Source of the DNA: Pseudobdellovibrionaceae bacterium
GTDB lineage: Bacteria; Bdellovibrionota; Bdellovibrionia; Bdellovibrionales; Bdellovibrionaceae
Reading direction: 5' to 3'
Length of the DNA stretch: 64,000 nucleotides
Assembly (NCBI GenBank): GCA_019637955.1
Contig: JAHBUS010000001.1
Coordinates: forward strand, 1-64,000
Positions 23,833-33,474 of this stretch are shown piece after piece (positions within the stretch are counted from its first letter, which is position 1; each line of letters starts with the position of its first letter). The notes beneath the pieces were generated by a model, which saw only the letters and a list, made by a program, of their open reading frames with translations, searched no databases and was not told the origin of the DNA. The translations under genes and the position numbers were made by a program.

Positions 23833-24133
23833 TTAACCCCTTTCCACCTGTTAAAATCGGCTCAAAGGGAGACGACCCTTGAGTCCAGAGGCGCAAAATT
23901 GGACCCCGAACTGGACCATCTTGAAGAACAAAATCGCACATAAAAAATATCTGCCCGCATAAGGTCTGGTTCCCGCGACTTTTTATCAAGATTCATCAGC
24001 GAGTGAATCAGGCTGATACGGTCCAAAGTTAAGAAATCCGCCTAAACTCCGATATATAGATGAAAACGCTCGGGTATTTTTCTCAACTTCGATTCGGCAA
24101 CATATATGCACGTTGGCGGAGGAGGATTTTTTG
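23833..24133. other. Divergent intergenic region between FecR-type gene and DGR target
   Basis: Holds the start signals of both genes. A small hairpin AAGGG/CCCTT lies near 23870, and ATTCA/TGAAT near 23993. One TTCGGCAA site at 24093-24100 matches the hexamer of the phased array at 29249-29374. No clear -35/-10 pair was found. Confidence 0.45.
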
Positions 24134-27100
24134 ATGACTAAAACTTCCATTTTAAGCCACGCGCTCGCGCGCGTTCCAACGTACATCTTGTCCGCTTCAA
24201 CTTTATTTTTCTTTTCTGGTTGCGGTTGGCTTCAACAAATCTCTGAACTGGATCGCGAAGTCACATTTTCTGCAACCATCACTCCCGCACAAATATACGA
24301 GGGACAGCAAGCAAAAGTTCAAGTGAATCTGAGCAAAAACTACGAGGGCGAGAAAATCATCTCCTGGACCCTTTACGAAGAAGGTACCCAGTCACTCGCC
24401 ACAACTTCTGATTTCGTCGAAGTTCAAGGCTCTGTCTCCCTCTCAGGAACGAGCGCCAAGGATTTTACAATTACATCGAAGCCTGGAAGTATCGCTTCCG
24501 GCAGCAAGCAATTCAAAGTCGTTCTAACGACTGAAAACTCCTCTCAATCCTTCAACATCTCTGTCCTGGATTCAGGAACGACCAGCACCATCTCGATCAC
24601 GTCGGCGCTAAACTCCGGCTACGTCAATAACGCCAACAAAGCGAACTACACTGTAAGCGGCGTCTGCTCGACGGCTGGAAGCGACGTCAACTTAGTTGCC
24701 GAGATCGGCGGCCAAAGCACAAGTGGCGTTGTCCCATGCTCAGTCAGCCTCGACTGGTCAATCAATTTGAATTTTTCCGCCGTTACGAACGATGGTCCCG
24801 TAACGCTCTCCGCGACTCATGCTGGAGGCGGCGGAACTCTTGGTGCGACCAGCCTACAAATCCAGAAGGACGTCGCAGCACCCACGGTCGCGTTCTCAAG
24901 TCCTGGCGCAATGAGCGCCATCAACGCTAGTATGGCTTCAAGTTTTGCGATCTCTGGAACCTGTTCGGAATACACCCGCATTGTTTCGGCGACGCTAACT
25001 TCGAGCGGCGGTGGAACACCTGTCGTCGCTTCTGGAGTTTGTCTGGATATTCTTGGCAGCGGAGAATGGAGCACCACCGCGAACATTTCGTCGCTGACCG
25101 ACGGAACGATTACGGCGACGCTCAGTCACTCGGACGCTGCCGGAAACACGTCTTCTGGAGTGCGCGCATTCACCAAAGATACTTTGATCCCAACTCTTTC
25201 GATCACGTCACCAGCTTCGCTTGCCACTTACAACGCAAGCACTTATCAGGCTCTTGCCATTGGCGGCGCCTGTAATAAAAACGGCGCTACCGTTACGCTT
25301 ACGGGCGACGTTAGCGGAACTTTGACCGCGACTTGCAACGGTACGAGCTATTCCTTTTCCGGCCTCACGCTGACCGGCGCAAACGGCGTTCGCGCAGTGA
25401 CAGCCACAATTAGCGATACGGCTGGAAACCAAACTCAAACAAGCATCAATCTTCAAAAAGACATTCTCGTACCGACGCTCGCGATCACGTCTCCCGCGAG
25501 TATGACGATGTATAATGCAAGCACCTACCAGACGCTTGCGATCACCGGCACTTGTAACAAAAACGGTGCGACCGTCGCGCTAACGGGCGACGTCAGCGGC
25601 ACCTTGAGCGCAAGCTGCAACGGAACGAACTTCTCATTTTCTGGTTTGACTCTTACGGGGGCTACAGGAACACGAACGATCACTGCCACAATCAGCGATT
25701 CAGCGGGTAACTCCTCGCAAGTGAACCTGAACCTGCAAAAAGACATCGTTGTTCCGACTTTGGCGATTTCGTCGCCCGCATCTTTGACGACTTTCATTGC
25801 GAATAACTATACGTCCGTTGCCATCAACGGAACTTGTAATAAAAACGGTGCGACCGTTACGCTCACAGGCGATGTCAGTGGCACACTGACGGATACCTGT
25901 AACGGGACAAACTATTCGTTCACGGGTCTAACTCTCACTGGGACCGACGGTTTGAAGTCCGTGACGGCCACTATCGCGGACTCCGCGGGCAACTCTTCTC
26001 AGGTGAATTTGAATCTCCAGAAGGACATCAGCGTTCCGACGGCAATCTTGAGTGGAGCGCCGGCGCCTGGATCATATAGCAATGCCACGAGCTTGACCGT
26101 GACTGTCGGGGGCGCCGATGTCAGTGAGTATCTGTATAAATTCGGAGATGGCACAACGGATTGCACGAATGCTACGGGTTACTCGGCCGCCACCGGAATC
26201 GCCACTACGATTTCCATTAACGCGGGAACGATGGGCGCTGATGGTGCGAAGAAGCTCTGTGTTCGCGCGAAAGATGCCAGTGGCAACATTCAGTCATTGG
26301 CCTCTGCTACCGAGGTCGGCTGGACGAAGGACACTGCGCTTCCGACGCTGGCGTTTACTTCTCCTGCCGCTGGATCTTACGTCAACCTCGCGACTCAATC
26401 GAGCTTCGCGGTGAGCGGAACTTGCTCTGAGGTTGGAACAAGCAACGTGAACATCGACGGCGACATCACGGCTCCCGTACAAGTCAACTGCGTTGCGGGC
26501 GCTCCGAATACTTGGACCGCGAACGTAAATTTCTCGACGGCCTCGAACGGCCCTGTGTTCCTTCTTATCTCGCAGACGGATGCGGCTGGAAACGTCGGAA
26601 GCCGTACCCGAGCATTCGTCAAAGACGCCGTGAATCCGACGATTGGATGGACCACTCCTTCTGCTGGAGCCTTCATCAATAACGCCAATAAAGCTGCTTT
26701 CGCCGTTACCGGGACTTGCTCGGACTATAGCGCGACTCCGAACGTGGCACTGACGAGCACGGCTCTTACTTCGACTGTGAATGTCGCTTGCGACGGCGCG
26801 AACTGGACAGCAAACCTTGCCTTCAACAACGGCGATGAGGCTGTCACCGTGCGCGCGACGATTACCGACGCCGCAGGAAATTCGACTTACAGCGACCGCA
26901 ATTTCTCGAAAGACACGAATAACCCAGTGCTTGCGATCACGTCGCCTTCAGCGGGAAGCTATGTCAATGACGCGAACAAAGCTGCGTTCGCCGTCAGCGG
27001 CACTTGCTCAGATGTAGGAACGAACAACGTCGTTGTTTCCGGTTCCGCGACCGCGACTGTGAACTGCGTCTCAGGCAGCCCGAACACTTGGTCGGCGAAT

Positions 27101-29125
27101 TTGAACTTCACGGCGGCCAGCGACGGCGCGCTTTCGATCACGGTCACGCACACGGATGCCGCTGGAAACACCCATGCTCCGACGCTCGCGCTGAATAAAG
27201 ATGTGGTGGCGCCGACGACCGGCTGGACGCTTCCTCTCGCGGCGGCGTGTGCATCGAATTCTTCTGGGACAACTTTCGCAGTCTCAGGCACTTGCACGAA
27301 TGGCGACGGAAACGTGACCTTGAGCTCCGCTCAACTCGGCACTCCGGTAGCGACTTCTTGCACTGGCGGAACCTGGAGCGCAACTCTGAACCTGAACGTG
27401 ACGGCACTTGCGGATCTTGCATCATTCAGCGTTCAAGCGAGCCAGACGGATACGGCCGGAAATACCGGCGCCCTCTCTCGTAGCTTCAAGAAAATTGGAA
27501 GCGCGCCTACGGTGATTCTTGGCGGTTGGGACGACATTTATTCCGTCGGACCTAAAACATACGCGTCCAATCCTTCAGAAACGACTCCAAACTCTGAGCC
27601 AGGACAAGTCCGCATCTCTTGGAAAGAGTGGCCTGCTGGAAATACCTGTATGCCTGAAGCGGTCAAAGTGTACCGCGCAAGCATCGCCGGTGGCGGTGGC
27701 TCTCTGGTCTCGAACATGGATTTTCCGAGCGGTATTCCTGCCAACGTCAGAAGTTTCACCGACAACACGCTCCAAGGCGCGACTATCGGCACGGTCGGAT
27801 CGCCGACCGACTTCGGCAAAGGCTGGTACTACACTCTCAGAGTCACCATCGCGGGCAGCGACTACAACGTAACGTCACCGACGGAGATTGCAGAGGCGCG
27901 CGTGGTTGCACCGCCTGTGAACATGGCCCTCGTGCATCGCTGGATAGCGAACCAAGAGGTCTGCGGGCTGATGAGCCGCACACCGGACGCCGCCAATCAC
28001 TACCGTTGCAGCTATTCCGGCTGGGGTAAGATCACCGGCAACTACTACGATTTGGAGAAAGACCTCCTCGTGGATCGCCACGAACTCGGCTGTAACTTCA
28101 CTTCCAGTTGCGGAGCTGGAGGCAATCAGCCGTGCTTGGCTTCGGTTTTCTCAACGACCAATCCGGCCGGAGCCGGTATCGCAGGTGCGGACGGACAGGT
28201 TTTCTATAACGACGACGGCACCGATGCTCAATGCTTCATCAAGATCGCTGGCACATGGCGCGCGGCGAATACCGCTACAGCGACCGTAACTCTTCCGAAC
28301 CGCTTGGCGATGTCAACGGCGATGGCGGGTAAACCGCCACTCACTCGTATTGACCAACCCAAGTCTTACGATAACTGTCAGGCTTACTCCGTAACTCTCG
28401 ACCAAGTGGCGGGCTTCACTTCGGCCAACAAACGCTTACTGCGTAACAAAGAATGGAAAGCTGCTGCGGCTTGGTCGCCGACACTCACGGATGCTCAGAT
28501 CGTGACACTTGAAAACGGCGGCGCCTTGGGCCGCTGTAACACCTCCAACGCGCACGGACTGATTGCGACGGATCGTGGCTGGGTCGGCACTTACGCCTTC
28601 TATAGCGGCTCTCAGACGGCCACAGCGTCTTGCCAATCGCGCTACGGCATTCAGGACATGGTGGGCAACGTCTGGGAATGGACTTCGGACCAGCTCGGAA
28701 GCTGTTCGGGCGCCGGTTCGACGTGCGTGGGCGTCACGTCCGCTGTGGATGCTGGGAACACCGACATGAACGGCTTTCCGTTCGATCACGTCGCTGCCCC
28801 CGGAAACGGACTCGTTTCGGAATGGACCATCGAAAGCAAATCTTACGGAGCCAACTATTTTTCGGTGCCGCTCGGTATCCCGATGATTACGAACGACGGC
28901 GGAAATGCCATCAGCATCGACTCTTGGCTGACTCCCACCAACAAATTCCACGGAGATCGGTTCTACCTCTATCCTACGAATGGCAACGTCTCTCGCGGCC
29001 TCTTCGTGGGTGGCTCCTGGGGCAACGGCACGGTCAGCGGGCGCTGGGCTTCTGCTTGGAGCAATACGCCGGCGTCGTCGGGCTACAACATCGGGCTGCG
29101 CTGCGCGGTCCCCCTCAGTTATTAG
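24134..29125 (+). CDS. DGR target: giant lipoprotein with Ig-like repeats and FGE/C-type-lectin domain
   Basis: A 1663-residue surface lipoprotein. The signal peptide ends in FFFSGC (lipid-attached Cys30). Residues about 150-1150 are bacterial Ig-like modules, each ending in a DAAGN or DSAGN turn and LQKD or FTKD linker. From about 1265 there is a formylglycine-generating-enzyme-type C-type-lectin fold, with MVGNVWEWTSD at about 1510 and the terminal GGSW ... GRWAS ... GLRCAVPLS. The final 43 residues are the variable region. Start ATG 24134 follows GGAGGAGG; the frame extends to 24113. Like the Legionella DGR lipoprotein, it probably displays a diversified ligand-binding tip on the cell surface. 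Confidence 0.9.
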   Translation: MTKTSILSHALARVPTYILSASTLFFFSGCGWLQQISELDREVTFSATITPAQIYEGQQAKVQVNLSKNYEGEKIISWTLYEEGTQSLATTSDFVEVQGSVSLSGTSAKDFTITSKPGSIASGSKQFKVVLTTENSSQSFNISVLDSGTTSTISITSALNSGYVNNANKANYTVSGVCSTAGSDVNLVAEIGGQSTSGVVPCSVSLDWSINLNFSAVTNDGPVTLSATHAGGGGTLGATSLQIQKDVAAPTVAFSSPGAMSAINASMASSFAISGTCSEYTRIVSATLTSSGGGTPVVASGVCLDILGSGEWSTTANISSLTDGTITATLSHSDAAGNTSSGVRAFTKDTLIPTLSITSPASLATYNASTYQALAIGGACNKNGATVTLTGDVSGTLTATCNGTSYSFSGLTLTGANGVRAVTATISDTAGNQTQTSINLQKDILVPTLAITSPASMTMYNASTYQTLAITGTCNKNGATVALTGDVSGTLSASCNGTNFSFSGLTLTGATGTRTITATISDSAGNSSQVNLNLQKDIVVPTLAISSPASLTTFIANNYTSVAINGTCNKNGATVTLTGDVSGTLTDTCNGTNYSFTGLTLTGTDGLKSVTATIADSAGNSSQVNLNLQKDISVPTAILSGAPAPGSYSNATSLTVTVGGADVSEYLYKFGDGTTDCTNATGYSAATGIATTISINAGTMGADGAKKLCVRAKDASGNIQSLASATEVGWTKDTALPTLAFTSPAAGSYVNLATQSSFAVSGTCSEVGTSNVNIDGDITAPVQVNCVAGAPNTWTANVNFSTASNGPVFLLISQTDAAGNVGSRTRAFVKDAVNPTIGWTTPSAGAFINNANKAAFAVTGTCSDYSATPNVALTSTALTSTVNVACDGANWTANLAFNNGDEAVTVRATITDAAGNSTYSDRNFSKDTNNPVLAITSPSAGSYVNDANKAAFAVSGTCSDVGTNNVVVSGSATATVNCVSGSPNTWSANLNFTAASDGALSITVTHTDAAGNTHAPTLALNKDVVAPTTGWTLPLAAACASNSSGTTFAVSGTCTNGDGNVTLSSAQLGTPVATSCTGGTWSATLNLNVTALADLASFSVQASQTDTAGNTGALSRSFKKIGSAPTVILGGWDDIYSVGPKTYASNPSETTPNSEPGQVRISWKEWPAGNTCMPEAVKVYRASIAGGGGSLVSNMDFPSGIPANVRSFTDNTLQGATIGTVGSPTDFGKGWYYTLRVTIAGSDYNVTSPTEIAEARVVAPPVNMALVHRWIANQEVCGLMSRTPDAANHYRCSYSGWGKITGNYYDLEKDLLVDRHELGCNFTSSCGAGGNQPCLASVFSTTNPAGAGIAGADGQVFYNDDGTDAQCFIKIAGTWRAANTATATVTLPNRLAMSTAMAGKPPLTRIDQPKSYDNCQAYSVTLDQVAGFTSANKRLLRNKEWKAAAAWSPTLTDAQIVTLENGGALGRCNTSNAHGLIATDRGWVGTYAFYSGSQTATASCQSRYGIQDMVGNVWEWTSDQLGSCSGAGSTCVGVTSAVDAGNTDMNGFPFDHVAAPGNGLVSEWTIESKSYGANYFSVPLGIPMITNDGGNAISIDSWLTPTNKFHGDRFYLYPTNGNVSRGLFVGGSWGNGTVSGRWASAWSNTPASSGYNIGLRCAVPLSY
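25187..26032 (+). repeat. Three exact-length 282-bp tandem repeats
   Basis: Three consecutive 94-residue Ig-like modules start at 25187, 25469 and 25751, each exactly 282 bp. Each holds the segment GTCNKNGATV (first copy GACNKNGATV), then LTGDVSGTL, then FSGLTLTG or FTGLTLTG. The similarity is much higher than among the other modules, pointing to recent duplication and possible length change by recombination. Confidence 0.85.
28991..29119 (+). repeat. DGR variable region (VR)
   Basis: 129 bp at the 3' end of the target gene. Aligned without gaps to template unit 1 (31488-31616) it differs at 11 positions, all of which are adenine in unit 1 and changed here to G (5), T (5) or C (1). They change Tyr to Phe, four Asn codons and three Thr codons. 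The G/C-rich 3' end GCTGCGCTGCGCGGTCCCC is the initiation-of-mutagenic-homing (IMH) type sequence and is identical in VR and template. Confidence 0.95.
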
Positions 29126-29165
29126 CGTTAGCTCGGCGGCCCCGAAGGGGTTGCGGAGCTAATGC
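29125..29165 (+). promoter_or_regulatory. Hairpin/cruciform just after the VR (homing element)
   Basis: GCGTTAGCTC pairs with GAGCTAATGC (one G-T pair), closed by CCCC/GGGG around GAA. It begins 5 bp after the VR end. DGRs such as that of Bordetella phage BPP-1 carry a hairpin a few bases downstream of the IMH that promotes target recognition; this is its likely equivalent. None of the six templates has it. Confidence 0.75.
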
Positions 29166-29205: not shown

Positions 29206-29248
29206 CTCCCTTTCCCCTATTGGGTAGAGCATCAAAGATTGAGATTTT

Positions 29249-29374
29249 CGGCAAAGTACGGCAACTTCCGGCAAACCCTGCCGGTGTTTGCCGGAAATTT
29301 TTTTTGATCGGCAAATCTTGCCGAAGAAGGCGTATTTTTGCCGAAGATTGCCGGACATTGCCGAGCAACGGCAA
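29249..29374. promoter_or_regulatory. Helically phased CGGCAA/TTGCCG site array
   Basis: The hexamer occurs at 29249, 29259, 29269, 29309 and 29369 as CGGCAA, and at 29288, 29318, 29338, 29348 and 29358 as TTGCCG, with a one-base variant at 29278. Steps are 9-11 bp or multiples, so sites face one side of the helix. The array ends 17 bp before the HTH-like accessory gene. A related TTCGGCAA lies 40 bp upstream of the target-gene start. It is probably an operator for cooperative binding. Confidence 0.7.
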
Positions 29375-29390
29375 GGTTGTGGAGATGACG

Positions 29391-30035
29391 ATGAGATGGC
29401 TTACCGCACAAGAACTTTCAAAGATCGCTAAGAAATCCCAGGACGCGGAGAAAACCGTTCCTGAACGCACAATCCGACACATGGCGCTGCAAAAGAAGTT
29501 CGCCACCAAGAAGGAAGGCAAACACTGGCTAATTGATCCAGCGTCTGCTCTTCGTGCGGGACTCTATATCTCGCCCGAAAATTTAGAATCGCTTCAGTTA
29601 AGAAAAACGGAACCAGCCGCGTCGAGCGACCCCACCCCGACCGAACAAGGAAGTTCAGCCTCCGAAGCAACTTCTAAAGATCCCAAGAAATATAAGATGC
29701 TGGGCGAACTCGGAGTTTACAACGAACTGAAGTCCCTTTATCGGGAAAAGCTCTCTGACAAAGAAGGTCCGGTCAAAGAAGCGATTAAACAAACTCTCTA
29801 TCACTTAGGTCTTGGCTTTTACGAGTATCCGCAGGTAAATAAGGCCGAATACTTCAAAAGAGCACGAAAGCATTTGGTAGGCGCCATCGTCGAAGACGAT
29901 CTGGTGTCAACCAGTCGGAGTGACTGGCGCGATCAACTCGAAAATTCCATTATGCCCGGAATAATAGGTCTGATCCGCAAACAAGAGGGCGGGAAACGTG
30001 GCCGGGGACAACCTAAAGTTAAAGGGAAAGATTGA
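29391..30035 (+). CDS. DGR-linked accessory protein with N-terminal HTH-like domain
   Basis: About 214 residues. The first about 60 (WLTAQELSKIAKKSQDAEKT, then ERTIRHMALQKKF) look like a helix-turn-helix followed by a short wing; a low-complexity linker follows (SSDPTPTEQGSSASEATS), then a helical C-terminal domain with YNELKSLYREKLSDKE. It sits between target and avd, overlaps avd by 38 bp, and follows the phased site array. Inference: a regulator of the DGR operon. ATG 29391 has GGAG six bases upstream; 29385 is an alternative. Confidence 0.7.
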   Translation: MRWLTAQELSKIAKKSQDAEKTVPERTIRHMALQKKFATKKEGKHWLIDPASALRAGLYISPENLESLQLRKTEPAASSDPTPTEQGSSASEATSKDPKKYKMLGELGVYNELKSLYREKLSDKEGPVKEAIKQTLYHLGLGFYEYPQVNKAEYFKRARKHLVGAIVEDDLVSTSRSDWRDQLENSIMPGIIGLIRKQEGGKRGRGQPKVKGKD

Positions 30036-30387
30036 GCAGTTCTACCAAGGACTGATTCCGATTCTTCAAAAATTTCCAAAAACTCAACGATACACTCTCG
30101 CGGAGAATATCGAAAAGGAAACTCTGACCTGCGTGAATCTGATCTTCGAGGCGGAGTACGTCAAAAATCGGCGGCTTGAAGCCTTGAAAGTTCTCAGAAC
30201 CAAACTCCATGTCATCACATTTTTGATTCGTGTCTCCTCAAAGAGCGGCTTCATCAAGGAAGGCGTTTACGAGCAGTTGACTCGTGACACAACAGAGATG
30301 GGAAAAATCACGAGTGGCTGGATCAAGAATGAAGAATCGTCAAATAAAACCCGAACTGAGAAACCAACCCAATCCGCAGAAGTATGA
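29998..30387 (+). CDS. avd: Avd-like DGR accessory variability determinant
   Basis: A 129-residue four-helix-bundle protein. Features of the Avd/bAvd family are seen: YQGLIPILQKFPKTQRYTLA near the N-terminus, the IEKETLTCVNLIFEAEY helix, and the C-terminal TEMGKITSGWIK. Avd forms a pentamer that binds the reverse transcriptase and template RNA and is needed for mutagenic cDNA synthesis. GTG start inside the previous gene; the stop overlaps the RT start in ATGA. Confidence 0.9.
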   Translation: MAGDNLKLKGKIEQFYQGLIPILQKFPKTQRYTLAENIEKETLTCVNLIFEAEYVKNRRLEALKVLRTKLHVITFLIRVSSKSGFIKEGVYEQLTRDTTEMGKITSGWIKNEESSNKTRTEKPTQSAEV

Positions 30388-31436
30388 GAAAGCGCAAAGC
30401 CTACGGTATTTTTGATCCCATGACCGAGTTTTCAAATCTCGTTCAAGCCTTCTACAAGGCATCCAAGGGCAAAAAGAATCGTCTGGCCGTTCTTTCATTT
30501 CAGGCGAATCTCGAAGACAACATTTTTGATATTCAAGAGCGCCTCCGAGGTGAGACGTATCCATTCGGCCCCTACCGATCATTTTACGTCACCGAACCTA
30601 AGCTCCGGCTGATCGAGTCGGCGTGTTTTCAAGATCGCGTTGTCCACCATGCAATGTATGAGCGACTGGAACCGCTTTTCGACCCGCAGTTCTACGAATA
30701 CTCCTTTGCTTGTCGCTCAGGCCGTGGAACTCACGCCGCCATGCTCACGCTGGGCGATTGGATTCGTCGCTCACGACTTCCGATATTTTTGAAATGCGAC
30801 ATCCGTCGATACTTCACGAGCATCGACCGCGACAAACTGCTCGAAATCCTGAAGCGATCCATTGGCGACGATAAGATGCTCAGGCTGTTAGAAAAACTGA
30901 TCCTCTCAGCTCCGCGGACAGGAATTCCGATCGGCAATCTCACTTCGCAACTTCTAGCGAATATATACCTGAACGAGCTCGATCAACTGGTAAAGAGACA
31001 ACTTCGAGTGAAGTATTATATCAGGTACATGGACGACTTCATCTTGCTTACGGAAAGCCCAGAAGCCGCGCGCCGATTGAAAGAAACGATTCGGGAATTC
31101 GTTGAAGATGAGCTGAAGCTCGAACTTAGCCCGGAAAAAGTGCGGATCGGCCACGTCAATGAAGGCGTTCCGTTTGTCGGATATTGCCAACGCCCGAAAG
31201 AGGTTCGTGTACGTGGCGCGGCCTTACGCCGAATGCGGAAGAAAGTCCGCAAGGCTTACCGCAAATCTTTTGGACGTAACTACGATATGCCGGAAGGATT
31301 CTGGGAATCGAAGAAAACGAAACGCACTGCTTTTTATGCAAGCTGGTCGTCTTATGTCGGTCAGACGAAGTACGCGAAAAACGCAGATTACCTTCAAGAA
31401 AAATTGGTCAGAGAGTTAGAGATTCTTCCTCCTTAG
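30384..31436 (+). CDS. DGR reverse transcriptase
   Basis: A 350-residue RT that copies the template RNA with adenine-specific errors. The palm motifs are LKCDIRRYFTSID, GIPIGNLTSQLLANIYLNELD (the IGxxxSQ signature in place of the QGxxxSP of group II introns), YIRYMDDFILL (catalytic Asp pair) and VPFVGYC. A short C-terminal thumb follows and no maturase or endonuclease domain is present, as usual for DGR RTs. It is translationally coupled to avd and followed 52 bp later by template unit 1. Confidence 0.97.
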   Translation: MRKRKAYGIFDPMTEFSNLVQAFYKASKGKKNRLAVLSFQANLEDNIFDIQERLRGETYPFGPYRSFYVTEPKLRLIESACFQDRVVHHAMYERLEPLFDPQFYEYSFACRSGRGTHAAMLTLGDWIRRSRLPIFLKCDIRRYFTSIDRDKLLEILKRSIGDDKMLRLLEKLILSAPRTGIPIGNLTSQLLANIYLNELDQLVKRQLRVKYYIRYMDDFILLTESPEAARRLKETIREFVEDELKLELSPEKVRIGHVNEGVPFVGYCQRPKEVRVRGAALRRMRKKVRKAYRKSFGRNYDMPEGFWESKKTKRTAFYASWSSYVGQTKYAKNADYLQEKLVRELEILPP

Positions 31437-31487: not shown

Positions 31488-31770
31488 TCTCGCGGCCTCT
31501 ACGTGGGTGGCTCCTGGGGCAACGGCACGAACAGCGGGCGCTGGGCTTCTAATTGGAACAATACACCGACGACGACGGGCAACAACATCGGGCTGCGCTG
31601 CGCGGTCCCCCTCAGTCTCGATCCGTCAGCCAGAGTCCCTGAATTGAGAACTCAGGGAGCGCGCTGGATAGAAACAAAGGCTTCCTTTCTCATGTCGGCA
31701 GGATACCGCGCCGACGAAGTTTGTTTTCACGGGCCAGCCACTTGATTCGGGTGCCTGGTCCGTTTTTATA
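31488..31770 (+). ncRNA. DGR template unit 1: active template repeat (TR) plus structured tail
   Basis: The 129-nt repeat (31488-31616) is the template of the present VR: identical except at 11 adenines. Variable codons are AAC, AAT and ACG. The tail has a hairpin TCCCTGA/TCAGGGA (31636-31658), a GATAGAAACAA segment (31667), a second hairpin TCGGC/GCCGA (31695-31715), and an intrinsic terminator ACGGGCCAG/CTGGTCCGT followed by TTTTT (31729-31767). The tail is the likely spacer RNA needed for priming by RT-Avd. Confidence 0.93.
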
Positions 31771-31820
31771 TTCAAAGCGTGGGAATTGAAGGTCTCGCAC
31801 TTGCTTTTTGGACGCGTGTA

Positions 31821-32103
31821 AAATGCGGCCTCTTCGTGGGTGGCACTTGGTGGGATGGCTCGAACGCCGGGCGCTGGGCTTCCTATTGGTATGCCACACC
31901 GGAGACGGCTTGGCAGAACAACGGGCTGCGCTGCGCGGTCCCCCTCAGTCTCAATCAACGGCCAGAGTCTTCGAGCTGAACCCTCGGAGAGCGCGCCGGA
32001 TAGAAACAAGACTTTCATTTTCCAGGTCGGAGCCTTCCTTGGCACTGACGAAGCAGCCTTCACGAACCAGCCGCTTGATTCGGGCGCCTGGTTCGTTTTT
32101 ATA
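31821..32103 (+). ncRNA. DGR template-like unit 2
   Basis: Same layout as unit 1 and the same repeat length (129 nt, 31821-31949). In the VR frame it reads without stops and keeps the fold residues (GLFVGG, GRWAS, GLRCAVPLS). The variable codons are, however, mostly TGG, GAT, TAT, GCC, GAG and CAG rather than AAY, so it looks like an already diversified sequence. Its hairpin is TCTTCGAG/CTCGGAGA (31968-31990), then GATAGAAACAAG and terminator ACGAACCAG/CTGGTTCGT plus T5 (32062-32100). Confidence 0.85.
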
Positions 32104-32158
32104 TTGAGGCATCGGAATAGGAAGTCTCCGACTTGTTGACGGTTGCGCTATTAAGAGG

Positions 32159-32437
32159 TCTCGCGGCCTCTTCGTGGGTGGCAGTTGGAACGAAGGCTCG
32201 AACACCGGGCGCTGGGCTTCCAACTGGAGATATTTACCCACGAATACGTTCAACAATGTCGGGCCGCGATGCGCGGTCCCCCTCAGTCTCGGTCCAAGGC
32301 CAGAGTCTCTGAACCTGAAACTTCAGAGAGCGCGCCGGACAGAAACAATGACTTCTTCGCCCGTATCAGCGCCGCTGCGCCGATTAAGTTTTTAGGAGAA
32401 CCAGCCACTTGATTCGGGTGCCTGGTTCGTTTTTATA
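32159..32437 (+). ncRNA. DGR template-like unit 3
   Basis: A 129-nt repeat (32159-32287), open in the VR frame, with intermediate adenine content (AAC GAA, AAC ACC, AAC, AGA TAT, ACG AAT ACG, AAC AAT). One unusual change, GGGCCGCGA, replaces the otherwise invariant GGGCTGCGC. The tail hairpin is TCTCTGA/TCAGAGA, a second hairpin GCGC-CGCT-GCGC follows, and the terminator GAACCAG/CTGGTTC plus TTTTT ends the unit (32398-32434). Confidence 0.83.
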
Positions 32438-32481
32438 TTGCTCTGTGGGTAGCGGGAGTCTGCAACTCATGAAGATCGCGT

Positions 32482-32760
32482 GATTGCGGCCTCTTCGTGG
32501 GTGGCTCTTGGGCCGGACCCTGGGAAGGTGGGCGCTGGAGTTCCTATTGGAATCAACCTACGACGGCCATCTGGAACAGCTTCGGTCTGCGCTGCGCGGT
32601 CCCCCTCAGTCTCGATCTACACGGCCAGAGTCTCTGACCTGAAACCTCAGAGAGAGTGCTGATAGAAACAAGGCTTCGGCTACCCAATCAGCGCCGCTGC
32701 GCCGATAAAGTTTTTTTGACGAACCAGCCGCTTGATTCGGGTGCCTGGTTCGTTTTTATA
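32482..32760 (+). ncRNA. DGR template-like unit 4
   Basis: A 129-nt repeat (32482-32610), open in the VR frame. Variable codons are largely non-adenine (GCC GGA CCC TGG GAA GGT; CAA CCT), so it is VR-like. The tail repeats the TCTCTGA/TCAGAGA hairpin, GATAGAAACAAG, the GCGC-CGCT-GCGC hairpin and terminator ACGAACCAG/CTGGTTCGT plus T5 (32719-32757). Confidence 0.83.
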
Positions 32761-32819
32761 CTGACGAGCTTTCGGAAATAAGGGGTCTTACTTTTGTTGG
32801 TCGGTTGTGGTCCTGGTTG

Positions 32820-33106
32820 GATCGCGGCCTCATCGTGGGTGGCACTTGGAATAACAGCTCGAACAACGGGCGCTGGGCTTCTAATTGGAACAATGCGCCG
32901 ACGAACACGAACAACAACATCGGGCTGCGCTGCGCGGTCCCCCTCAGTCTCGATCTACGCGGCCAGAGTCTCTGACCTGAAACCTCAGAGAGAGCGCCGG
33001 ATAGAAACCAGGCTCCTTTTTTCCGTGTCAGTTCTTGTCTTGTGAGGGCTGATGAATGTAGTTTTCAGGTCGGCTGCCCGGCATCGGGCACCCGATCTGT
33101 TTTTTA
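32820..33106 (+). ncRNA. DGR template unit 5: second adenine-rich template
   Basis: A 129-nt repeat (32820-32948) with the strongest template character: the variable codons are AAT AAC AGC, AAC AAC, AAT, AAC AAT, and ACG AAC ACG AAC AAC AAC ATC. It is not the source of the current VR, because ACT, TCG and GCG codons differ from the VR at non-adenine positions. The first hairpin is kept; the second half of the tail differs and ends in another terminator, AGGTCGG/CCGATCT plus T6 (33067-33106). Confidence 0.85.
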
Positions 33107-33174
33107 TCCACCGATAGAATTCAGAGAAGGAAAATAGAGTCTTCATTCATTGCTTGCGCTCGCTTTCGCTGTCG

Positions 33175-33450
33175 TCTCGCGGCCTCTTCGTGGGTGGCTC
33201 GCGTGGCGACGGCTCTAACGGCGGGCGCTGGGCTTCGTAAGCTGGGAGGTCTGCAACGTGAGTCCTGCAACGGTCTGCGCTGCGCGGTCCCCCTCAGTCT
33301 CGATCAACAAGGCCAGAGTCCCAGAGCTTCAAAATTCTGAGAGTGCGCCTGACAGAAACAAGACTTCTTTTTCCTTATCGGCGTTACCGCGCCGATAAAG
33401 CGTTCCTATGGGGGTGGCCACTCGAACACGGGTGCCCACCTTCATTCTTC
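33175..33450 (+). ncRNA. DGR template-like unit 6 (damaged)
   Basis: The repeat (33175-33298) is 124 nt: a net 5-nt loss in the middle and a TAA break the VR frame, so homing from it would truncate the target. The 5' and 3' ends, including the IMH segment, are intact. The tail keeps a hairpin TCCCAGA/TCTGAGA with one mismatch, GACAGAAACAAG, an ATCGGCG-type hairpin and a terminator-like GGTGG/CCACC stem with a weak T-tract. Confidence 0.75.
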
Positions 33451-33474
33451 CACGAACCCCAGCGCCTTACCAAA

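Follow-up and report, generated by a model that had tools for sequence, protein, structure and literature searches.

In the canonical BPP-1-type diversity-generating retroelement (DGR), the spacer that corresponds to the RNA tail discussed below recruits the RT-Avd complex and primes cDNA synthesis (PMC12875486), and the position of a hairpin marks the recipient (PMC3240598). The locus described here resembles that system in its bAvd protein, its reverse transcriptase (RT), changes confined to adenines, a folded RNA behind the template and a hairpin behind the variable region (VR) only. It differs in that the template lies downstream of the RT, and in that the BPP-1 type has one template repeat (TR) whereas six tandem units are present here, each with its own folded tail and, in units 1–5, a terminator with a T run. 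DGRs with several TRs have been reported, e.g. with two TRs and six VRs, or with six TRs (PMC6642488); these likewise carry more than one TR per genome, but they have several VRs, in contrast to the single VR found here. Four single-TR DGRs from relatives (L196–L199) share the gene order, a TR peptide pattern like that of unit 5 and, where the contig reaches, the tail layout, but have one TR per locus instead of six units. In silent-cassette antigenic variation (e.g. pilin, vlsE), an array of variant donors serves one expressed site. Those systems use DNA gene conversion, whereas transfer here would proceed by mutagenic reverse transcription, and the likeness is one of analogy and not of membership. 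DGRs with several TRs are thus already known, but complete template-RNA genes arrayed in tandem to serve one VR are apparently new, as we found no description of such an array in the open-access literature, a weak negative given that subscription journals lay mostly outside the search.

Results

A DGR with six tandem template units and a single VR

The window, i.e. the whole stretch of DNA analyzed, covers positions 1–64,000 of contig C1 in a 3.77 Mb assembly in 14 contigs (99.94% complete). Within it, the target gene with the VR is followed by a 271-aa ORF, bAvd, RT and then six repeats spaced ~330 nt apart (Table 1). The true start of the target gene is probably slightly downstream of position 24113, and its translation contains a lipobox-like FFSGC within a lipoprotein-like N-terminus. 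The 271-aa ORF (29220–30035), situated between the VR and bAvd, matched nothing in Pfam or NCBIfam at the thresholds applied. Besides its Pfam match, bAvd aligned to NF033474 (DivGenRetAVD) with E = 1.4e-19, at a score of 70.3 bits that is below the cut-off of 80. DGR-type RTs follow the motif rule (I/V/L)GxxxSQ, and the RT encoded here has its motifs intact. Together with bAvd, a TR/VR pair that differs at adenines only (unit 1) and a hairpin behind the VR but behind none of the units, these features identify the locus as a DGR, putatively capable of mutagenic retrohoming. At Rfam gathering scores, the whole window yielded two tRNAs and nothing else.

Table 1 Coordinates of the DGR features within the 64-kb window.
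Feature	Position	Strand	Remarks
Target gene	24113..29125	+	Predicted surface lipoprotein; Ig-like adhesin repeats; C-terminal FGE-sulfatase/C-type-lectin-like domain ending in VR
VR	28991..29119	+	Sole recipient found in genome
18-bp inverted repeat directly 3' of VR	29125..29165	+	Putative target-recognition hairpin, z −3.97; behind 0/6 units
bAvd accessory protein gene	29998..30387	+	PF22296, E 1e-14, over cut-off
DGR reverse transcriptase gene	30384..31436	+	PF00078, E 1.4e-23; YMDD and IGNLTSQ intact (from translation)
Unit 1 template	31488..31616	+	Wrote present VR
Unit 1 RNA tail with terminator	31617..31775	+	
Unit 2 template	31821..31949	+	Tail 31950–32109
Unit 3 template	32159..32287	+	Tail 32288–32443
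Unit 4 template	32482..32610	+	Tail 32611–32766
Unit 5 template	32820..32948	+	Most adenines, least eroded
Unit 5 RNA tail	32949..33113	+	Folded region, terminator hairpin, T6 run
Unit 6	33175..33298	+	124 nt, frameshifted, in-frame stops; tail 33299–33456 retains stems, T run lost

Each unit consists of a 129-nt template (124 nt in unit 6) and a tail of ~150 nt. The first-pass annotation had correctly delimited the unit 5 repeat, except that its first codon (GAT) falls outside the VR match and the homologous part spans ~32822–32948. Unit 5 is matched by the VR and by each of the other five units at E values of 6e-9 to 1e-39, a similarity far beyond chance. Since the VR-side hairpin is absent behind the units, they are read as donors; the possibility that they are VR-like recipients was rejected because an RNA tail occupies the place of that hairpin.

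Unit 1 was the last template to write the present VR

Comparison with unit 1 revealed changes at 11 of its 24 adenines and at none of its 105 other positions, and the probability that all 11 mismatches would fall on adenines is ~1e-9 under random mismatch positions. Unit 5 differs from the VR at 19 of 30 adenines but also at 6 of 99 non-adenine positions (G1T, T27C, T33C, T40A, G76A and C87G), while units 2, 3 and 4 have 22, 17 and 28 non-adenine mismatches, respectively. Judged by adenine-only differences, unit 1 forms a TR/VR pair with the present VR and unit 5 does not. Because the VR is fully accounted for by unit 1, and unit 5 conflicts with it at non-adenine positions, unit 5 is not its source. 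This agrees with the first-pass annotation, which had described unit 5 as a template not used for the current VR and had named ACT, TCG and GCG codons as conflicting; the three conflicts are real (ACT versus TCC, T27C; TCG versus ACG, T40A; GCG versus ACG, G76A). The evidence on the source consists of one VR allele, from unit 1, in one genome of the genus; that no allele of unit-5 origin was seen counts against a role for unit 5.

Such a result is what one would see if units 2–6 were redundant, decaying duplicates, with only the RT-adjacent unit 1 functional and unit 5 by chance the least decayed. We regard this explanation as unlikely, though worth serious weight: the VR derives from unit 1 only, and one TR suffices in relatives of the family. 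The evidence from erosion, given below, bears on it from both sides.

Unit 5 looks like an ancestral-type template

Of the 129 nt of unit 5, 30 are adenines; 18 of these occupy the first codon position, 12 the second and none the third. The unit has 11 AAY codons. The corresponding numbers of adenines and AAY codons are 24 and 7 in unit 1, 24 and 6 in unit 3, 19 and 3 in unit 2, and 17 and 2 in unit 4; the VR has 13 adenines. Unit 5 is therefore adenine-rich, with more AAY codons than unit 1, as had been proposed from the sequence, but the accompanying statement that its variable codons are almost all AAY or ACG was somewhat generous, with 13 of 21 counted-variable codons conforming. It has the exact length, an open frame without a stop, and VR homology at both ends.

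At the 27 positions where the TRs of three relatives share an adenine, unit 5 keeps 24, compared to 17 in each of units 1 and 3, 11 in unit 2, 10 in unit 4 and 9 in the VR. It also gives the best peptide match to those three TRs, at 31–32 of 43 residues; its NWNNAPTNTNNNIG is close to the NWNNAPSNTNNNIG of those TRs. The retained adenines, the peptide match and the lack of third-position adenines make unit 5 look like an ancestral-type template rather than a by-product. The same counts divide the case for decaying duplicates: more than half of the ancestral adenines are gone from units 2 and 4, and in unit 6 the frame is shifted and the T run lost, as decay would have it, whereas the exact length, open frame and 24 of 27 adenines of unit 5 speak against it. 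The idea that units 2 and 4 are archived alleles of a VR written from a unit-5-like template was rejected: of 99 non-adenine positions, 16 in unit 2 and 19 in unit 4 disagree with unit 5, and adenine-only mutagenesis cannot make such differences.

The units carry covarying RNA tails, with terminator-like hairpins in units 1–5

Alignment of the six tails delineated five helices, in which 18 of 39 base pairs are changed on both sides. Overall, 95.7% of the cells pair, versus 87.1 ± 1.2% in shuffles and 28–43% with slid partners; the observed values were not reached in any of 500 shuffles. The last helix alone accounts for 10 doubly changed pairs and is followed in units 1–5 by a T run, resembling an intrinsic terminator. 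Unit 5 takes part in these compensating changes, yet unit 5 folded alone was not better than shuffles (z = −0.71), so that the structure is visible only by comparison between units. Where the contig reaches, the single-TR tails of the relatives show GCCAGAG, a stem, a GAAA-containing stretch, a hairpin, GAAG and a terminator. Given covarying tails that match this layout, the array looks as if the entire template-RNA gene, and not the repeat alone, had been multiplied in tandem. One stretch of the tail that is otherwise conserved deviates in unit 5 (32998–33010), which reads GATAGAAACCAGG instead of the GATAGAAACAA or GACAGAAACAA of the other five units. The deviation, AAACCA for AAACAA, counts against the view that unit 5 is a maintained template.

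No recognizable sigma-70 promoter was seen in the array. With a terminator behind the units and no sigma-70-like promoter, the later units could be silent unless they have promoters of their own or recombination changes the first unit. The distal units might accordingly form a silent reservoir, in which only the RT-proximal unit is transcribed and recombination between the 330-bp repeats brings unit 5 into first place. The terminator-like hairpin and T run behind units 1–5, the unit-1 type of the present VR and the apparent lack of a promoter are all compatible with such a reservoir. We nevertheless deem it improbable, because tails and linkers have diverged too far among units for frequent exchange to seem likely, and because two of the arrays described below have VRs from the unit second from the RT (L155 and L092), though the gene order differs there.

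Constraint acts on the VR match and the RNA fold

Across units 1–5, identity amounts to 94% in constant codons (92% at third positions), 77% in tail stems, 64% in tail loops, 56% in variable codons and 52% in linkers. The clearest pair is units 1 and 5, in which all 66 constant-codon sites are identical, compared to 90 of 145 tail sites (Fisher p = 3e-11) and 46% of linker sites; the contrast for this pair is partly built in, as a codon was counted as variable if it has an adenine at position 1 or 2 in unit 1 or unit 5. With constant codons and stems conserved and variable codons and linkers drifted, the pattern is that of constraint on nucleotide-level agreement with the VR and on the folding of the RNA; drift has affected the codons overwritten by mutagenesis, at adenines and non-adenines alike. 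Decay of redundant duplicates fits poorly with linkers at this level next to constant codons so well preserved, and with stems that change in compensating pairs.

Unit 6 (33175–33298) is 5 nt short and has in-frame stops and no T run, but its two end blocks and its tail stems are retained. Conserved ends thus do not prove use, as those of unit 6 persist despite a broken middle; the unit may reflect recent decay or homogenization of the ends.

No second VR for unit 5 is present in the assembly

The first-pass annotation had offered two roles for unit 5, either as an alternative template for the present VR or as the template of a further VR at some other genomic site. The second found no support. 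Searching unit 5 against the whole genome to E = 10 returned the known VR and the six units only, the next-best match being 16 bp long (E = 0.42), so no further segment of the genome agrees with unit 5 outside the adenines. Even with every one of the 30 adenines randomized, a unit-5 VR would be expected to retain ~80% identity, and since units at 71% were detected, it should have been detectable. A pattern search with the 5' block gave no full match outside the DGR locus, and a domain-family search of the genome gave one other FGE-sulfatase-domain gene over the cut-off (C6:4046–4651), which unit 5 did not match. No match was obtained in an exact search of viral contigs for the 23-nt 3' block or in a distant search of phage and plasmid records for the array.

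A second VR could have been lost, lie in an assembly gap or reside on a replicon outside the assembly. Multi-template, multi-target DGRs do exist, as in a Bacilli genome (G066) with units and VR-like segments on several contigs, and a missed VR is conceivable in an assembly of 14 contigs. Nonetheless, the completeness of the assembly, the lack of a second VR at E up to 10, the failure of unit 5 to match the sole other FGE-domain gene over the cut-off and the absence of the array from phage and plasmid records make this highly improbable.

Multi-unit arrays recur in distantly related DGRs

The relatives L196, L197, L198 and L199, which belong to the same DGR family, have RTs ~50% identical and one TR per locus. 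In a set of 140 genomes of the order, unit 5 matched no DGR locus of any other genome more than once. We also surveyed 281 RT loci, some of them overlapping copies, 196 of which have an adenine-only TR/VR pair; extra template units with both VR-matching ends occurred at few of the 281. The repeats at L058, L061, L084 and L093, picked up in the k-mer survey, were read and proved to be other repeats, and L041–L047, L052, L107, L108, L159, L186–L189 and L242 were set aside, not having been picked by the stricter test that begins with an adenine-only TR/VR pair.

Seven template units accompany a single VR in the two phage contigs L155 (4567–5846) and L156 (IMG/VR 3300022753_000313 and 3300024270_000379). 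The VR derives from the unit second from the RT (0 of 78 non-adenine positions changed), whereas the other equal-length units have at least 17 non-adenine mismatches. The two VRs differ from each other at 3 positions, all at adenines of the source unit, indicating that this unit has been active. In phage contig L249, which has 3 units, the VR comes from the RT-proximal one (0 of 91 non-adenine positions; 3–4 in the others), as it does in its relative L323, which has 2. The extra unit of L323 (2568–2700) has ends that match the VR and variable codons diverged at non-adenine positions. Bacilli contig L092 carries 4 units with repeated tails, and its VR derives from the unit second from the RT (1 of 85 non-adenine positions). 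The genome to which it belongs, G066, has many units with repeated RNA tails on C65, C14, C39 and C40 and VR-like segments on C65, C2, C15, C8 and C27, the last of which is possibly a mosaic of more than one unit. Multi-unit arrays therefore recur in distantly related DGRs, and L155 and L092 demonstrate that a DGR can also use a unit other than the RT-proximal one. The survey yielded no two relatives whose arrays are the same but whose VRs stem from different units.

Discussion

The explanation we favor, with somewhat better than even confidence, sees unit 5 as a template-RNA gene that is complete and kept by selection, within a tandem array that serves one DGR RT and one VR. As an alternative template for the current VR, the role that had also been suggested for it at first pass, unit 5 fits all of the observations, namely the flanking homology, the open frame, the covarying tail, the ancestral adenines and the parallel arrays. 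From these sequence features we infer that its RNA is made, bound and used. In the proposed mechanism, the unit-5 RNA would comprise the adenine-rich template and the folded 3' tail, closed by its own terminator; the bAvd-RT complex would bind it, and cDNA would be made with random bases opposite adenines. Homing of this cDNA to the present VR would rely on two shared stretches, the 5' block and the GC-rich 3' end beside the VR-side hairpin. Because units 1 and 5 differ at non-adenine positions of variable codons, homing from unit 5 would change fixed residues too, replacing them while the adenine codons are reshuffled. The array would in this way add template choice to adenine mutagenesis.

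More generally, we tentatively propose, at somewhat less than even confidence, that a single VR in a DGR can be served by a library of alternative template-RNA genes, a two-level diversification whose arrays would have arisen independently here, in a Bacilli lineage and in phages. If so, the choice of template would set the non-adenine residues and determine which codons vary, and adenine mutagenesis would act on the chosen template. The non-adenine differences between units are natural barcodes for the source template of a VR, which makes the array a simple test bed. If the array is used, DGR diversity would extend beyond the adenine changes of one template to a one-step change of fixed residues and of the pattern of variable sites.
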